Assembly (NCBI RefSeq): GCF_003337555.1
Contig: NZ_QPJK01000004.1
Location: forward strand, 1 to 64,000
Source of the DNA: Pseudorhodoferax soli
GTDB lineage: Bacteria > Pseudomonadota > Gammaproteobacteria > Burkholderiales > Burkholderiaceae_C
Direction of reading: 5' to 3'
DNA length: 64,000 nt
Under the pieces are notes generated by a model. The model had not been told where the DNA came from. It ran no database searches and worked only from the letters and a program-made list of their open reading frames with translations. This document shows, piece by piece, positions 23,156-30,757 of this stretch. The position numbers and the translations under genes are program-made. Position 1 is the first letter of the stretch. Every line of letters starts with the position of its first letter.

Positions 23156-25681
23156 TCAACCGAAGACCAGCGCCTGCGCCTGCTCTTCGTCCAGCGCACT
23201 GCCGTGCAGGCGCCAGACGGCGATGCGCTCGGGCGCATGGGCCTGCGCGGCGAGCGCCAGCGTGGCCTCCATGGTGCGCGTGTCCAGCGGCGTGCGCACC
23301 TCGCCGCGGCGCTGGCGCGCGGCATCGTCGCAGCCCAGCAGCTGCACCGCCTCGCGCAGCTTGCCGCGGCGCGCCGCCAGCAGGCTCAGCATGCCGGAGA
23401 AATGCCGCAGCCCCAGCGAGCGCCGGCAGTACGGCAGGCTGCGCTCGACCTGGGCCAGTGCCTCGTCGAGTGCGCCCTGGGCCGTCAGCGCATGGGCAAA
23501 CCAGTTCAGCGCGAAGGCCATCATCTCGGCGTCGGTGCGCGGCGACGCCTGCAGCAGCTGCAGCGTGGCGCGGTACTGCCGCACCGCCTCGTCCAACCGG
23601 CCCAGCTCGTGGTGCACGGCCGCCAGGTTGTTCTGCAGGTAGAACAGCGTGCGGCCGTCGCCGGCCTGGCGCGCGAACGGCAGCGCCTCGGTGAAGGCCG
23701 CGAAGGCCGCCTCGGGCCGCCCCTCGGAGCGGCAAACCATGCCTTCGACGTACTGCCAGACACCGCGCAGCAGCGCGAGCTCGGGCCGCTGCACGAGTTC
23801 GGCCACACGCTGCAGGCTCTGCCGGGCCACGCCCAGTTCGCCGCAGATGCCGGCCACGTAGGCCCGCATGCACAGGGTGTAGACCAGCACCACGTGCGGC
23901 GGATGCCGCTCGAACACGGCGCGCGCCTCTTCGAGCAGCGCAAGCCGCGTCGGCCCGTCGATGCCGCCATGCAGGCCGACCATGGCCAGACCCAGCCGGA
24001 AGCGCGCCGCCACGAGTTCGGGCGTGTGTGCGTCCAGGAGCGGCTCCACGCGCCGCATCCACGACACGCATTCGGCGTAGCGGCCGATCTGGTACATGAA
24101 CTCAGCCGCCAGGTTGGCCAGCTCCAACGCCAGCGCGCGCTCGCCGGCGTCGGTGGCCCATTCGATGGCGCAGCGCAGGTTCTCGACCTCGGGCTGGTAG
24201 GCCAGCACCCAGTGGTCCAGCGACTCGAAGCCCGTGCGGGCCATGCGCGCGCGGCGGTTGAAGATGTCCAGCAGGCAGCGCGCATGGGCGAGCTGCATGG
24301 CACGCCATTCGCCAGCCTGCTCCAGCTGCTCGCAGGCGTAGACGCGGGCCGTCTCCTGCAGCCGGTAGCGCGGCACCGCGCCGGGCTCCAGCACCACCAT
24401 GGACTTGTCGACCAGGTTGCTGAGCAGGTCCAGCACATCCCAGACGTCGGTCTCTTCGTCGGCCGCGACCTGCTGTGCCAGATCAAGCCCGAAACCACCG
24501 ACGAAGACGCCGAGCCGGCGGAACACCTTCTTCTCCTCCACGCTCAGCAGCGCGTGGCTCCAGTCCAGCGTGGCGCGCAGCGTGCGCTGGCGCGTGGGCG
24601 CATCGCGCGAGCCGCTCTTGAGCATGCGCAGCCGCTGCGCGAGGTGCTGGCGCACGCCGTCCACGCCCAGCAGGGGCACGCGTGCTGCCGCGAACTCCAG
24701 CGCCAGCGGCATGCCGTCCAGCGCGCGGCAGATCTCCACCACGCCCGCGCGGTTGGCGGCGTCCAGCACGAAGCCGGGCAGCAAGGCCTGCACACGCGCC
24801 ACGAACAAGGCCACGGCACCATGGCTGTGGGCCTCGTCCAGGGCATCGGGCGCAGGCACCGCCAGCGCCTCCAGGCGCAGCTGGCGTTCGTCCTTCAGGC
24901 GCAGTGGCTCCTGGCTCGTGACCAGCACATGCAGGCCGGGCCGGGCCTGCAGCAGTTGCTCCACCAGCGCGGCCACGGCCCAGACCAGGTGTTCGCAGTT
25001 GTCCAGCACCAGCAACTCGCGCCCGTGCAGGCGCGCAGCCAGTTCGGCCTGCGGATCGCCCCCGGCCGGCAGGTTCATCTCCAGCGCTCGCGCCACCGCG
25101 GCGGGCAGCGCGGCGGCATCGCTCACGTCGGCCAGGGCCACCAGCCAGATGCCATCGGGAAAGTGGTCCACGAGCTGCCGCGCGGCGGCCCGCGCCAGGC
25201 TGGTCTTGCCGATGCCGCCCGCGCCGAGCAGGCTGACCAGCCGGTGCTCGCGCACCATCGCCGGCACGGCGATGAGGTCGGCCTCGCGGCCCAGCAGCGT
25301 CTCGGCCTGCGTCAGGTTGCCCAGCCGCTCCTGCAGCGCAGGCAGGGCCGGGGCTGCGGCGGCGGGCGGGGCGGCCGCGACCTCCTGCAGCACAGCCCCG
25401 AAGCGGTAGCCGCGCCCGGGCACGGTGACGATGGCCCTGGCGCCCAGCAGCTTGCGCAGCGTGCTCACCTGCACCTGCAGGTTGTTGTCCTCCACCACGA
25501 GCTGAGGCCAGACCAGATCGAACAGCTCGTTCTTGCTGAGCATGCGGTCGCGGTGCCGCACCAGGGCCTCCAGCAGGTCGAAGGCGCGCGCGCCCAGCGT
25601 GACCGGCGCGCCATCCACGCGCAGTTCGCGCGTGGACGGACGCAACTCGGCACGGTCGAAGCGGAACACGGGGTCGGACAT
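23156..25681 (-). CDS. Large winged-helix / NTPase / TPR transcriptional regulator
   Basis: This 841-residue protein has three regions. Residues 1-100 form an OmpR-type winged-helix DNA-binding domain (GARAFDLLEALVRHRDRMLS, then LVVEDNNLQVQVSTLRKLLG and TVPGRGYRFG). Residues about 130-400 form a STAND/NB-ARC-like NTPase with Walker A GAGGIGKT (153-160) and a Walker B-like LLVLDNCEHLVW. From about 400 to the end are helical TPR-like repeats. There is no receiver domain, so control is likely through ligand binding and nucleotide-driven oligomerisation. It faces the molybdenum-hydroxylase operon across 133 bases and is its probable regulator. Confidence 0.9.
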   Translation of the reverse strand: MSDPVFRFDRAELRPSTRELRVDGAPVTLGARAFDLLEALVRHRDRMLSKNELFDLVWPQLVVEDNNLQVQVSTLRKLLGARAIVTVPGRGYRFGAVLQEVAAAPPAAAAPALPALQERLGNLTQAETLLGREADLIAVPAMVREHRLVSLLGAGGIGKTSLARAAARQLVDHFPDGIWLVALADVSDAAALPAAVARALEMNLPAGGDPQAELAARLHGRELLVLDNCEHLVWAVAALVEQLLQARPGLHVLVTSQEPLRLKDERQLRLEALAVPAPDALDEAHSHGAVALFVARVQALLPGFVLDAANRAGVVEICRALDGMPLALEFAAARVPLLGVDGVRQHLAQRLRMLKSGSRDAPTRQRTLRATLDWSHALLSVEEKKVFRRLGVFVGGFGLDLAQQVAADEETDVWDVLDLLSNLVDKSMVVLEPGAVPRYRLQETARVYACEQLEQAGEWRAMQLAHARCLLDIFNRRARMARTGFESLDHWVLAYQPEVENLRCAIEWATDAGERALALELANLAAEFMYQIGRYAECVSWMRRVEPLLDAHTPELVAARFRLGLAMVGLHGGIDGPTRLALLEEARAVFERHPPHVVLVYTLCMRAYVAGICGELGVARQSLQRVAELVQRPELALLRGVWQYVEGMVCRSEGRPEAAFAAFTEALPFARQAGDGRTLFYLQNNLAAVHHELGRLDEAVRQYRATLQLLQASPRTDAEMMAFALNWFAHALTAQGALDEALAQVERSLPYCRRSLGLRHFSGMLSLLAARRGKLREAVQLLGCDDAARQRRGEVRTPLDTRTMEATLALAAQAHAPERIAVWRLHGSALDEEQAQALVFG

Positions 25682-25728
25682 GGAGCGGGGCAGGCGCCGA
25701 GAAAGAACTCGTTGTAACGGAATCAGTC

Positions 25729-25778
25729 CAGATGTGACAGCGTTTTCGACCGCGTGTCCCTACAAATAGTGACATCTG
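25729..25778. promoter_or_regulatory. Spaced inverted repeat in the regulator/operon intergenic region
   Basis: CAGATGT (25729-25735) and ACATCTG (25772-25778) are exact reverse complements 36 bases apart. Both overlap a GTGACA hexamer (25734-25739 and 25769-25774). They sit centrally between the regulator start (25681) and the operon start (25815). The roughly 43-base centre-to-centre spacing is about four helical turns, suiting binding by an oligomeric regulator. It is a candidate operator only. Confidence 0.4.
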
Positions 25779-25814
25779 CGGCCAGCGGCCGAACAGCCGT
25801 ACCCTTGGGGCCCC

Positions 25815-29766: not shown

Positions 29767-29775
29767 GAGACACGC

Positions 29776-30330
29776 ATGCCGCGCTACGGCCCGCCCATCA
29801 ACTTCCCGCAATGGATCGCCGAGCACGCCGACCGGCTCAAGCCGCCCGTGGGCAACCAGCAGGTCTGGCAGGACGCCGACATCCTCGTGACCGTGGTCGG
29901 CGGCCCCAACCAGCGCACCGATTTCCACGACGACCCGCTGGAAGAGTTCTTCCACCAGTTCAAGGGCAACGCCAGCCTGCTGGTGCTGGACCGCGGCCGC
30001 TTCGAGCGCATCCACCTCAAGGAAGGCGACATCTTCCTGCTGCCCGCCCATGTGCGGCATTCGCCGCAGCGGCCCGAGGAAGGCAGCCTGTGCCTGGTGG
30101 TCGAGCGCGCGCGGCCTGCGGGCCTCGTCGACGGCTTCGAGTGGTACTGCGCACACTGCGCGGCGCTGGTGCAGCGCTCGGAGCTGCAGTTGCAGAGCAT
30201 CGTGGCCGACCTGCCGCGCGTGTTCAACGCCTTCTATGGCAGCGATGAGGCGGCACGCCGCTGCGCGTCCTGCGGCCAGGTGCACCCGGGCCGCGACTGG
30301 CAGGCCTGGCATGCCGCGGTGGGGGCCTGA
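29776..30330 (+). CDS. nbaC: 3-hydroxyanthranilate 3,4-dioxygenase
   Basis: Cupin ring-cleaving dioxygenase of 184 residues that opens 3-hydroxyanthranilate to 2-amino-3-carboxymuconate semialdehyde. The iron ligands known from the Cupriavidus metallidurans enzyme fall at the same numbers here: His51, Glu57 and His95. The substrate-contact residues Arg47, Arg99 and Glu110 are also present. The C-terminal rubredoxin-like zinc/iron site is intact (YCAHC at 124-128, CASC at 163-166). Activity as a true 3-hydroxyanthranilate dioxygenase is therefore likely. It lies 9 bases after the aspartate dehydrogenase-like gene. No decarboxylase or semialdehyde dehydrogenase of the usual pathway is in the window. 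Confidence 0.93.
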
Positions 30331-30334
30331 ATCC

Positions 30335-30757
30335 ATGGCGACCGAACTGCGCATCGAAGTGCTGCGCCTGCACCCGGGCGACGACCTGCGCACCGCGTTG
30401 CTGCATTGGAGCGAGGCCGCCGCGCGCGCGCCCGAACCGGTGCAAGCGGCCTGCGTGCTGTCGGCCGTGGGCAGCCTCACGCGGGCCATGCTGCGCTACG
30501 CCGACGCGGCGGCCGGCACGCGCATCGACGGCCCGCTGGAACTGCTGAGCCTGGCCGGCACGCTGGGCCCGGGCGGCCTGCACCTGCACGCCAGCGTGTC
30601 CGACGCCGAAGGCCGGGTCCTGGGCGGCCACGTGATGCCGGGCTGCAACGTGCGCACCACGGCCGAGATCGTGCTGGGCTTGCTGCCGGCGCACCAGTTC
30701 GACCGTGTGGAAGACCCGCTGACGGGGTACCTGGAACTGCTGGCGCAGCGGCGCTGA
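30335..30757 (+). CDS. PPC (DUF296) domain protein
   Basis: This 140-residue protein carries the PPC/DUF296 signature: GPLELLSLAGTLGPGGLHLH, ASVSDAEGRVLGGHVMPGC and VRTTAEIVLGLLP. In plants the domain accompanies AT-hook proteins; free-standing bacterial versions are trimeric and of unclear function. Some may act as regulators or enzymes. The ATG at 30335 lies 4 bases after the dioxygenase stop, so it is the last gene of the catabolic operon. It converges on the next gene with 13 bases between stops. Confidence 0.85.
   Translation: MATELRIEVLRLHPGDDLRTALLHWSEAAARAPEPVQAACVLSAVGSLTRAMLRYADAAAGTRIDGPLELLSLAGTLGPGGLHLHASVSDAEGRVLGGHVMPGCNVRTTAEIVLGLLPAHQFDRVEDPLTGYLELLAQRR

Follow-up and report, generated by a model that had tools for sequence, protein, structure and literature searches.

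The first 64,000 nucleotides of contig NZ_QPJK01000004.1 from Pseudorhodoferax soli (hereafter "the window") carry a compact operon that very likely belongs to a module for the breakdown of 3-hydroxyanthranilate (3-HAA) independent of 2-amino-3-carboxymuconate semialdehyde (ACMS) decarboxylase (ACMSD). Its core genes encode an orphan molybdenum hydroxylase large subunit (MoH), a DapA-like class I lyase, an L-aspartate dehydrogenase-family protein (AspDH), and 3-HAA 3,4-dioxygenase (HAO). Comparison of gene neighborhoods supports well the idea that the module is widespread. The route proposed here for the ring-cleavage product may dispense with decarboxylation: ACMS, oxidized by interchangeable molybdenum- or NAD-dependent enzymes, would be split by a hydratase-aldolase lacking the usual tyrosine into an aspartate-family C4 compound and malonate semialdehyde, in many Proteobacteria and a few other lineages. 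Taken with every detail, this account falls somewhat short of even odds, and the exact C4 plus C3 split is put forward tentatively. Without insistence on that split, it is the best explanation, to which we assign a probability of about 0.62.

Does the cluster recur outside this genome? A genome_contigs scan with the DapA-like protein returned 484 pattern matches, and 473 stretches encode a relative. The best 80 of these 473 relatives (63 to 95% identity; flanks short in some) were scored for their neighbors, with identity thresholds of 40% for HAO, 50% for DapA, 40% for MoH, 45% for the succinate semialdehyde dehydrogenase (SSADH)-type and methylmalonate semialdehyde dehydrogenase (MMSDH) proteins, 35% for AspDH, and 35% (locus scoring) or 37% (whole genomes) for ACMSD, and a distance limit of 9.5 to 10 kb. 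Within 10 kb of the DapA-like gene, HAO was found in 63 of the 80 loci, MoH in 38, AspDH in 35, an SSADH-type gene in 13, a PPC gene in 4, and RidA in 1; neither the window's regulator nor ACMSD was found in any. For the 46 loci with full flanks (at least 8 kb on both sides), the counts are 39 for HAO, 26 for AspDH, 22 for MoH, and 11 for SSADH, with MoH and SSADH never together and 13 loci holding neither oxidant. Most hosts are Alpha- and Betaproteobacteria; the few others include Binatia, Gammaproteobacteria, and "Deltaproteobacteria" bins. When 250 genomes were drawn evenly from the window's order, 20 proved to carry a DapA relative at an E value of 1e-30, 10 of them (the window's own included) at an identity of at least 61%. 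The first-pass annotation of the window, made from its sequence, had presented five genes as one catabolic unit whose order should be sought elsewhere. The core genes do lie together in alpha- and betaproteobacterial genomes and in a few further lineages, and MoH-DapA-AspDH-HAO behaves, on this evidence, as a unit; the fifth member, PPC, does not share in this recurrence and, like the regulator, appears to be a local resident.

A test that does not depend on DapA starts from the dioxygenase. Two sets were searched for HAO, one of 398 genomes from the phylum and one of 399 from the order; each yielded 26 genomes with a match (own included). Of 52 other HAO neighborhoods scored, with conventional-gene queries taken from annotated plasmids, one (L205) gave no HAO match in the scoring, leaving 51. 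DapA lies near HAO in 18 of these, conventional genes in 22, both in none, and neither in 11 (Fisher p 2.4e-6, for rows that are not independent). Three rows need a gloss: a "conventional" one (L207; 32 to 34% HAO, 36% RidA) is the second HAO of a DapA-bearing genome, G722, and two "neither" rows also come from DapA-bearing genomes, L184 from G137 with DapA on another contig and L170 from G360 with DapA about 12 kb off. At the level of whole genomes, ACMSD at an identity of at least 37% is present in 0 of 20 DapA-bearing genomes, four of which have only paralogues of 30 to 33%, and in 17 of 19 conventional genomes, a positive control with some circularity, ACMSD close to HAO having served in defining the group. 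The set of 20 leaves out G100 (DapA 61%, no HAO match listed) and G360, which was counted as "other" and has no ACMSD match either; the 19 are those covered among 21 conventional-locus genomes other than G722, with G398 and G623 left out. The window's own genome has no ACMSD match at 1e-40. HAO genes from loci of either kind are interspersed on a tree of 81 rows, with 7 changes on the best tree, so that the same dioxygenase has been coupled repeatedly to two different downstream modules. The suggestion that the 3-HAA ring-cleavage product meets another fate here is supported, core and conventional genes excluding each other in the loci examined.

The dioxygenase is the best-defined member. HAO passes two NCBIfam equivalogs (PRK13264, 255.8 versus 220; TIGR03037, 237.5 versus 145.95) and matches the solved HAO structure 1yfu at an E value of 6e-82. 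Ten residues, R47, H51, E57, H95, R99, E110, C125, C128, C163, and C166, which correspond to the iron ligands, the substrate Arg and Glu, and the Cys metal site, are kept in 88 of 88 rows from DapA-type loci (this alignment and that of AspDH exclude rows below 70% of the window protein's length). Where would its substrate come from? Of eight plasmid loci opened around DapA, three have kynureninase in the cluster, those of Phaeobacter (L118), Shinella (L122), and Ensifer (L124); the Phaeobacter plasmid has its SSADH and HAO genes past kynU, some 10 to 12 kb from DapA. Rhizobium plasmid p3 (L119:6993-8740) has a PnbB-like-FMN_red fusion and a flavin reductase directly before a LysR-DapA-HAO-AspDH-SSADH cluster, likely a funnel for nitrobenzoate. 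The onb pathway reaches 3-HAA from 2-nitrobenzoate through a nitroreductase and a mutase (PMC5817917). Kynureninase or nitrobenzoate-type genes beside some relatives thus point to 3-HAA as the likely substrate of the module. In the window's genome, kynureninase and tryptophan dioxygenase adjoin each other on another contig. A gene like that for kynurenine 3-monooxygenase (KMO) had no match in that genome and was found in 0 of the 20 DapA-bearing genomes versus 6 of 10 others searched, where "KMO-like" refers to a place beside kynureninase and HAO, NCBIfam having given no kynurenine 3-monooxygenase name. Uptake genes of the LIV, TRAP, or TTT kind are annotated in six of the eight plasmid clusters (L118 to L121, L123, and L132) and inferred in many others. 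Together, the missing KMO-like gene and the clustered uptake genes suggest import of 3-HAA or of its precursors.

What does the molybdenum subunit contribute? MoH passes Pfam MoCoBD_1, MoCoBD_2, and Ald_Xan_dh_C and no NCBIfam cut-off, the best match there being the glyceraldehyde dehydrogenase alpha subunit, below cut-off. An RGAGRPEA loop and the G[VIL]GE[SA]G motif with the catalytic Glu are kept in 28 of 28 MoH rows, most of which, like the window's protein, are much shorter after residue 549 than the longest relatives. One FeS and one FAD query found no partner subunit in the window; each type lies near 6 of the 46 full-flank relatives, and the window's genome has 13 FeS-type matches elsewhere. 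Pooling all 106 DapA loci (five of which were kept in duplicate: L046/L203, L051/L169, L061/L185, L065/L028, and L079/L027), the neighboring oxidant is MoH in 48, SSADH in 22, MMSDH in 3 (two genomes), and none of these in 33, and in 0 of 106 do two of them co-occur above thresholds. "SSADH" is the label of the plasmid records; two such proteins score 422 and 437.8, below the NCBIfam SSADH cut-off of 646.35. The DapA tree (84 rows) has 9 switches between MoH and SSADH on the best tree, and an independent-pairs test on supported branches gives 8 pairs, with a mean of 4.5 opposite and 0 the same (median p 0.0625). Since MoH is repeatedly swapped with an NAD aldehyde dehydrogenase, both would be expected to oxidize an aldehyde, and this is probably what MoH does. 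In the conventional pathway, the homologous 2-AMS aldehyde is oxidized in competition with cyclization (PMC4286809 and PMC10143591).

The central enzyme would be the DapA-like protein, proposed by analogy to be a hydratase-aldolase. It passes Pfam DHDPS and no NCBIfam cut-off: its best match, KdgD, scores 66.3 bits, far below the 373.95-bit cut-off, and the DapA and NAL equivalogs score 52.8 versus 206.15 (TIGR00674) and 50.4 versus 382 (TIGR00683). The structural model (pLDDT 93) is a (beta/alpha)8 barrel of DHDPS type, with a TM score of about 0.8 to DHDPS. Across 50 aligned rows, 92 columns are invariant by a hand count, and K183 and the GKQGE motif (G60 to E64) are kept in all 50. Hydratase-aldolases belong to this superfamily, as does a decarboxylating dehydratase, and in KdaD, a dehydratase of the superfamily, Glu replaces the catalytic Tyr (PMC5380162 and PMC13398020). 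Not all relatives of this protein keep the same company. In five loci from Binatia and "Deltaproteobacteria" bins (L083, L088, L096, L105, and L107), the DapA-like gene has the common neighbors c42, c44, c53, and c105 and no HAO in the stretches scored, and another substrate is possible there. A second DapA-like family of 36 to 40% identity (L012 to L023 and L033 to L037) is often near putative tricarboxylate-transporter receptor genes, and the surroundings that were scored showed no HAO.

The remaining parts of the proposed route concern the two fragments. AspDH passes two curated models, PRK13303.1-2 (247.6 versus 226) and PRK13303.1-3 (281.9 versus 177), and its N217-x-H219 and N242-P243 motifs, the N-x-H and NP motifs of the family, are kept in 52 of 52 rows. 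In Pseudorhodoferax sp. Leaf274 (L068, 10992-10995), a large internal stretch of AspDH is deleted (window 28984-29648), in frame by arithmetic, and blastn covers the rest of the operon. This deletion, along with the absence of AspDH from some clusters, suggests an accessory role, since oxaloacetate would be directly usable. For the C3 fragment, MMSDH, a dehydrogenase of the malonate-semialdehyde type, is a candidate, and its linkage gives some support to malonate semialdehyde as a product: in G059, HAO, DapA, and MMSDH lie on one strand with small gaps (with one TGA inside the HAO match), and in G002, MMSDH lies about 0.7 kb past HAO on the same strand, at a contig end.

Put together, the route would run as follows. 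(i) HAO opens 3-HAA to ACMS, a step supported by family and active site. (ii) MoH or "SSADH" would oxidize the C6 aldehyde to 2-amino-3-carboxymuconate, as the exchange of their genes suggests, which would also block cyclization to quinolinate. (iii) By the chemistry of its family, the DapA-like lyase would form a Schiff base at C2 through Lys183, add water at C4, and cleave between C3 and C4, giving oxaloacetate or iminoaspartate (C4) and malonate semialdehyde (C3). (iv) AspDH would reduce the C4 fragment (iminoaspartate, or oxaloacetate plus NH3) to L-aspartate, keeping the nitrogen, and malonate semialdehyde would leave through an MmsA-type dehydrogenase. In formulas, 3-HAA (C7H7NO3) plus O2 would give ACMS (C7H7NO5) and, after oxidation, C7H7NO6, from which hydration and cleavage would yield iminoaspartate, C4H5NO4 (or oxaloacetate and NH3), and malonate semialdehyde, C3H4O3. 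By our own arithmetic, C7 equals C4 plus C3 and the balance closes with no loss of CO2, so no decarboxylase would be needed. With an NAD dehydrogenase in step ii, AspDH working in the reductive direction would make a redox-neutral pair. The proposed split would in effect be the degradative mirror of the way bacteria build quinolinate from iminoaspartate and a C3 unit.

Several observations weigh against this account. The steps after HAO are ones that we infer, and HAO itself is not near the DapA-like gene in 7 of the 46 full-flank loci. The catalytic Tyr of DHDPS and NAL has no counterpart at residues 120 to 137, its expected place by sequence alignment with those enzymes, in 50 of 50 DapA-like rows; aldolase chemistry would therefore require another acid/base, for which H128 (49 of 50 rows) is a candidate. 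A clustered oxidant is not strictly required: none of the three is present in the 33 loci mentioned, 14 of them full-flank, and no common replacement was found in those 14, although one of them (L118) has SSADH (77%) just beyond 10 kb. The exclusion between MoH and SSADH is partly clade-bound, and below the thresholds it has exceptions: four MoH loci (L054, L066, L069, and L168) have a dehydrogenase of 31 to 40% identity 1.7 to 7 kb off, and at L075, which carries SSADH, a divergent molybdenum subunit (about 30% identity) lies 4.9 kb off. AspDH is not strictly required in the cluster either, being near only 26 of 46. As for the exit of malonate semialdehyde, MMSDH is linked to the module in two genomes only, one of 28 conventional loci (L196) also has MMSDH, about 4.5 kb off on the other strand, and 37 of the 39 genomes in the two groups together carry the gene at some place, so that its mere presence is uninformative.

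Could the lyase do something else? It may be a deaminating decarboxylase, with Lys183 taking the C2 amine by transimination and the 3-carboxylate lost as CO2, the product 4-oxalocrotonate then entering an ordinary meta pathway encoded elsewhere. One step would replace both ACMSD and the deaminase; KdgD, a decarboxylating dehydratase, belongs to the superfamily (PMC13398020) and is, below cut-off, the best NCBIfam match of the window's protein. This chemistry would, however, leave AspDH with no role, and 4-oxalocrotonate decarboxylase, hydratase, and aldolase are found above thresholds in 0 of the 106 DapA loci, whereas several conventional loci do carry them; we consider it unlikely. Less likely again is a change of order, in which the lyase takes ACMS itself and cleavage comes first, leaving MoH, SSADH, or MMSDH to oxidize the C3 aldehyde, which would be malondialdehyde or, in the other order, malonate semialdehyde. 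MMSDH in place of MoH or SSADH reads as if all three enzymes worked on one C3 aldehyde, but that replacement is seen in two genomes only, and by our stoichiometry cleavage of ACMS gives malondialdehyde, for which two oxidations would be needed.

The first-pass annotation had counted N-heteroaromatic hydroxylation among the functions of the set. On such an account, MoH would hydroxylate quinolinate, formed by cyclization of ACMS (PMC10143591), or another N-heterocycle, and the remaining genes would open the ring. By sequence, quinoline 2-oxidoreductase indeed ranks second among the solved structures that match MoH. This account was given up as the main one on the ground that MoH and aldehyde dehydrogenases stand in for each other, which fits aldehyde oxidation: the same DapA-HAO core occurs with an NAD aldehyde dehydrogenase, an enzyme unable to replace a ring hydroxylase. 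Among the matches listed, the literature on quinolinate degradation had no bearing on these genes, and this alternative now looks improbable. AspDH (as NadX) and HAO are both known feeders of quinolinate, and the cluster might be imagined to supply precursors for NAD synthesis. The KMO-like gene counts given above led us to reject this as unlikely, and the uptake genes annotated in the plasmid clusters are typical of catabolism; of the alternatives, it is the most remote.

The layout of the operon itself was correctly described at the outset: all six reading frames in Table 1 that start at or after position 23,156 are present at their coordinates, and the five genes from MoH to PPC are tightly packed, with gaps of -7, -4, +9, and +4 bases. 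Queries for ACMSD, HMSD, SSADH, and FeS and FAD subunits found nothing in the window, in keeping with the initial remark that ACMSD and the usual semialdehyde dehydrogenase are missing; there are no AMSDH/HMSD, RidA deaminase, or meta-pathway genes near the operon. Conventional pathway genes close by were to count against a new pathway, and these queries found none in the window except two weak RidA matches (32 to 33% identity) away from the operon. Farther along the window are a TonB-dependent siderophore receptor (56344-58566, minus strand), above the TIGR01783 cut-off, and an amidase-family protein (52420-54141, minus strand), below cut-offs.

Table 1. Features of the operon and its upstream flank, in window positions
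Feature	Position	Strand	Length (aa)	Remark
GNAT acetyltransferase	21061-21630	+		Pfam Acetyltransf_1
Alpha/beta hydrolase	22117-23085	+		Pfam Hydrolase_4/Abhydrolase_1; with regulator in variable segment
Regulator, winged-helix/NTPase-like/TPR	23156-25681	-	841	
MoH, orphan xanthine-dehydrogenase-family molybdopterin-binding subunit (large)	25815-27995	+	726	
DapA-like class I lyase	27989-28966	+	325	
AspDH, L-aspartate dehydrogenase-family protein	28963-29766	+	267	
HAO, 3-hydroxyanthranilate 3,4-dioxygenase	29776-30330	+	184	
PPC/PCC (DUF296) protein	30335-30757	+	140	Pfam PF03479 passed

The operon had also been placed under a STAND-type regulator with winged-helix, NTPase, and TPR parts. 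The outer parts of this architecture stand, with Trans_reg_C at 61.5 bits and TPR_12 at 56 bits, both above cut-off. The middle part does not pass: all NTPase and STAND models listed fall short of their gathering scores (AAA_22, 24.7/27; NACHT, 23.5/26.7; nSTAND1, 21.9/27.1; AAA_16, 21.8/32.6). The protein does contain the Walker-A-like stretch GAGGIGKTS. As for control of the operon, the segment with hydrolase and regulator (21602-25788) is absent between GNAT and MoH in four relatives of the same genus that carry the module (L038, L039, L040, and L068; blastn junctions), where GNAT directly precedes MoH and regulator homologues are seen only on other contigs, part of the candidates having been scored. 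Winged-helix/TPR regulation as a part of the module was rejected for this absence and lack of linkage. The module is present in 5 of 6 genomes of the genus sample; the sixth, G764, lacks it and has a regulator homologue (77%) beside PPC, and the window's genome has a second regulator copy (70%) elsewhere. PPC, first taken for a member of the pathway, was set aside as an enzyme of it on its 4 of 80 loci and its place beside a regulator homologue in module-less G764, and it appears to be a peripheral resident neighbor, not core. At that G764 locus (L221:2439-4739), the interval from PPC to the far flank holds a cytochrome P450-2Fe2S fusion along with a TctC receptor. A winged-helix regulator of 687 aa (L125:14762-16825), with Trans_reg_C above cut-off and a TPR match that has no stretch of its own, lies by the HAO-SSADH-kynU part of the Phaeobacter plasmid.

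How does the module compare with described systems? The nearest are the nba/onb pathways, in which 2-nitrobenzoate is degraded through 3-HAA by HAO, ACMSD, AMSDH, a RidA-type deaminase, and meta-pathway enzymes, with the same dioxygenase and ring-cleavage product (PMC5817917 and PMC10143591). Their HAO genes intermingle with those of the DapA type on one tree, yet the window's cluster lacks ACMSD, an AMSDH/HMSD-type dehydrogenase, the deaminase, and a meta-pathway aldolase, and modules of its kind have the DapA-like protein, AspDH, and MoH or SSADH instead. The trans-o-hydroxybenzylidenepyruvate and trans-2'-carboxybenzalpyruvate hydratase-aldolases share the DHDPS/NAL superfamily and the Schiff-base lysine (PMC5380162 and PMC13398020). 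They hydrate an unsaturated 2-oxo acid and cleave it by a retro-aldol reaction, and the DapA-like protein is proposed, by analogy, to do likewise. The names of these enzymes do not appear in its 60 best matches listed by sequence; unlike them, it has no Tyr at the usual place, and its proposed substrate has an extra carboxylate and an amine. KdgD, the 5-dehydro-4-deoxyglucarate dehydratase (decarboxylating) discussed above, is far from passing. AspDH passes the curated cut-offs of the NadX type and keeps its motifs, but sits in an HAO-DapA context and not one of NAD synthesis. Large subunits of the CoxL/glyceraldehyde oxidoreductase type share the molybdenum cofactor domains and the G[VIL]GE[SA]G motif with MoH, but no FeS or FAD subunit was found in the window, and MoH is much shortened past residue 549 when set against its longest relatives. 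For a pathway combining HAO with aspartate dehydrogenase, dihydrodipicolinate synthase, or a hydratase-aldolase, nothing was found among the matches listed from the open literature, which concerned other subjects (a phenanthrene genome in the case of the hydratase-aldolase), in a search that did not cover subscription journals, and to that extent the initial view of the pathway as undescribed holds.

Overall, the module is possibly a variant of 3-HAA catabolism with a new lyase reaction. The fate of ACMS is a branch point between quinolinate and NAD on one side and full breakdown of kynurenines on the other, and ACMSD is described in a review as the only enzyme competing with ACMS cyclization (PMC10143591). 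A second widespread exit from ACMS, if real, would call for the reannotation of many genomes in which "dihydrodipicolinate synthase family" and "aspartate dehydrogenase" are at present the sole labels of these genes. It could also yield new lyase chemistry in the DapA superfamily, and it could explain the use of 3-HAA, 3-hydroxykynurenine, or 2-nitrobenzoate by soil, plant-associated, and marine bacteria.

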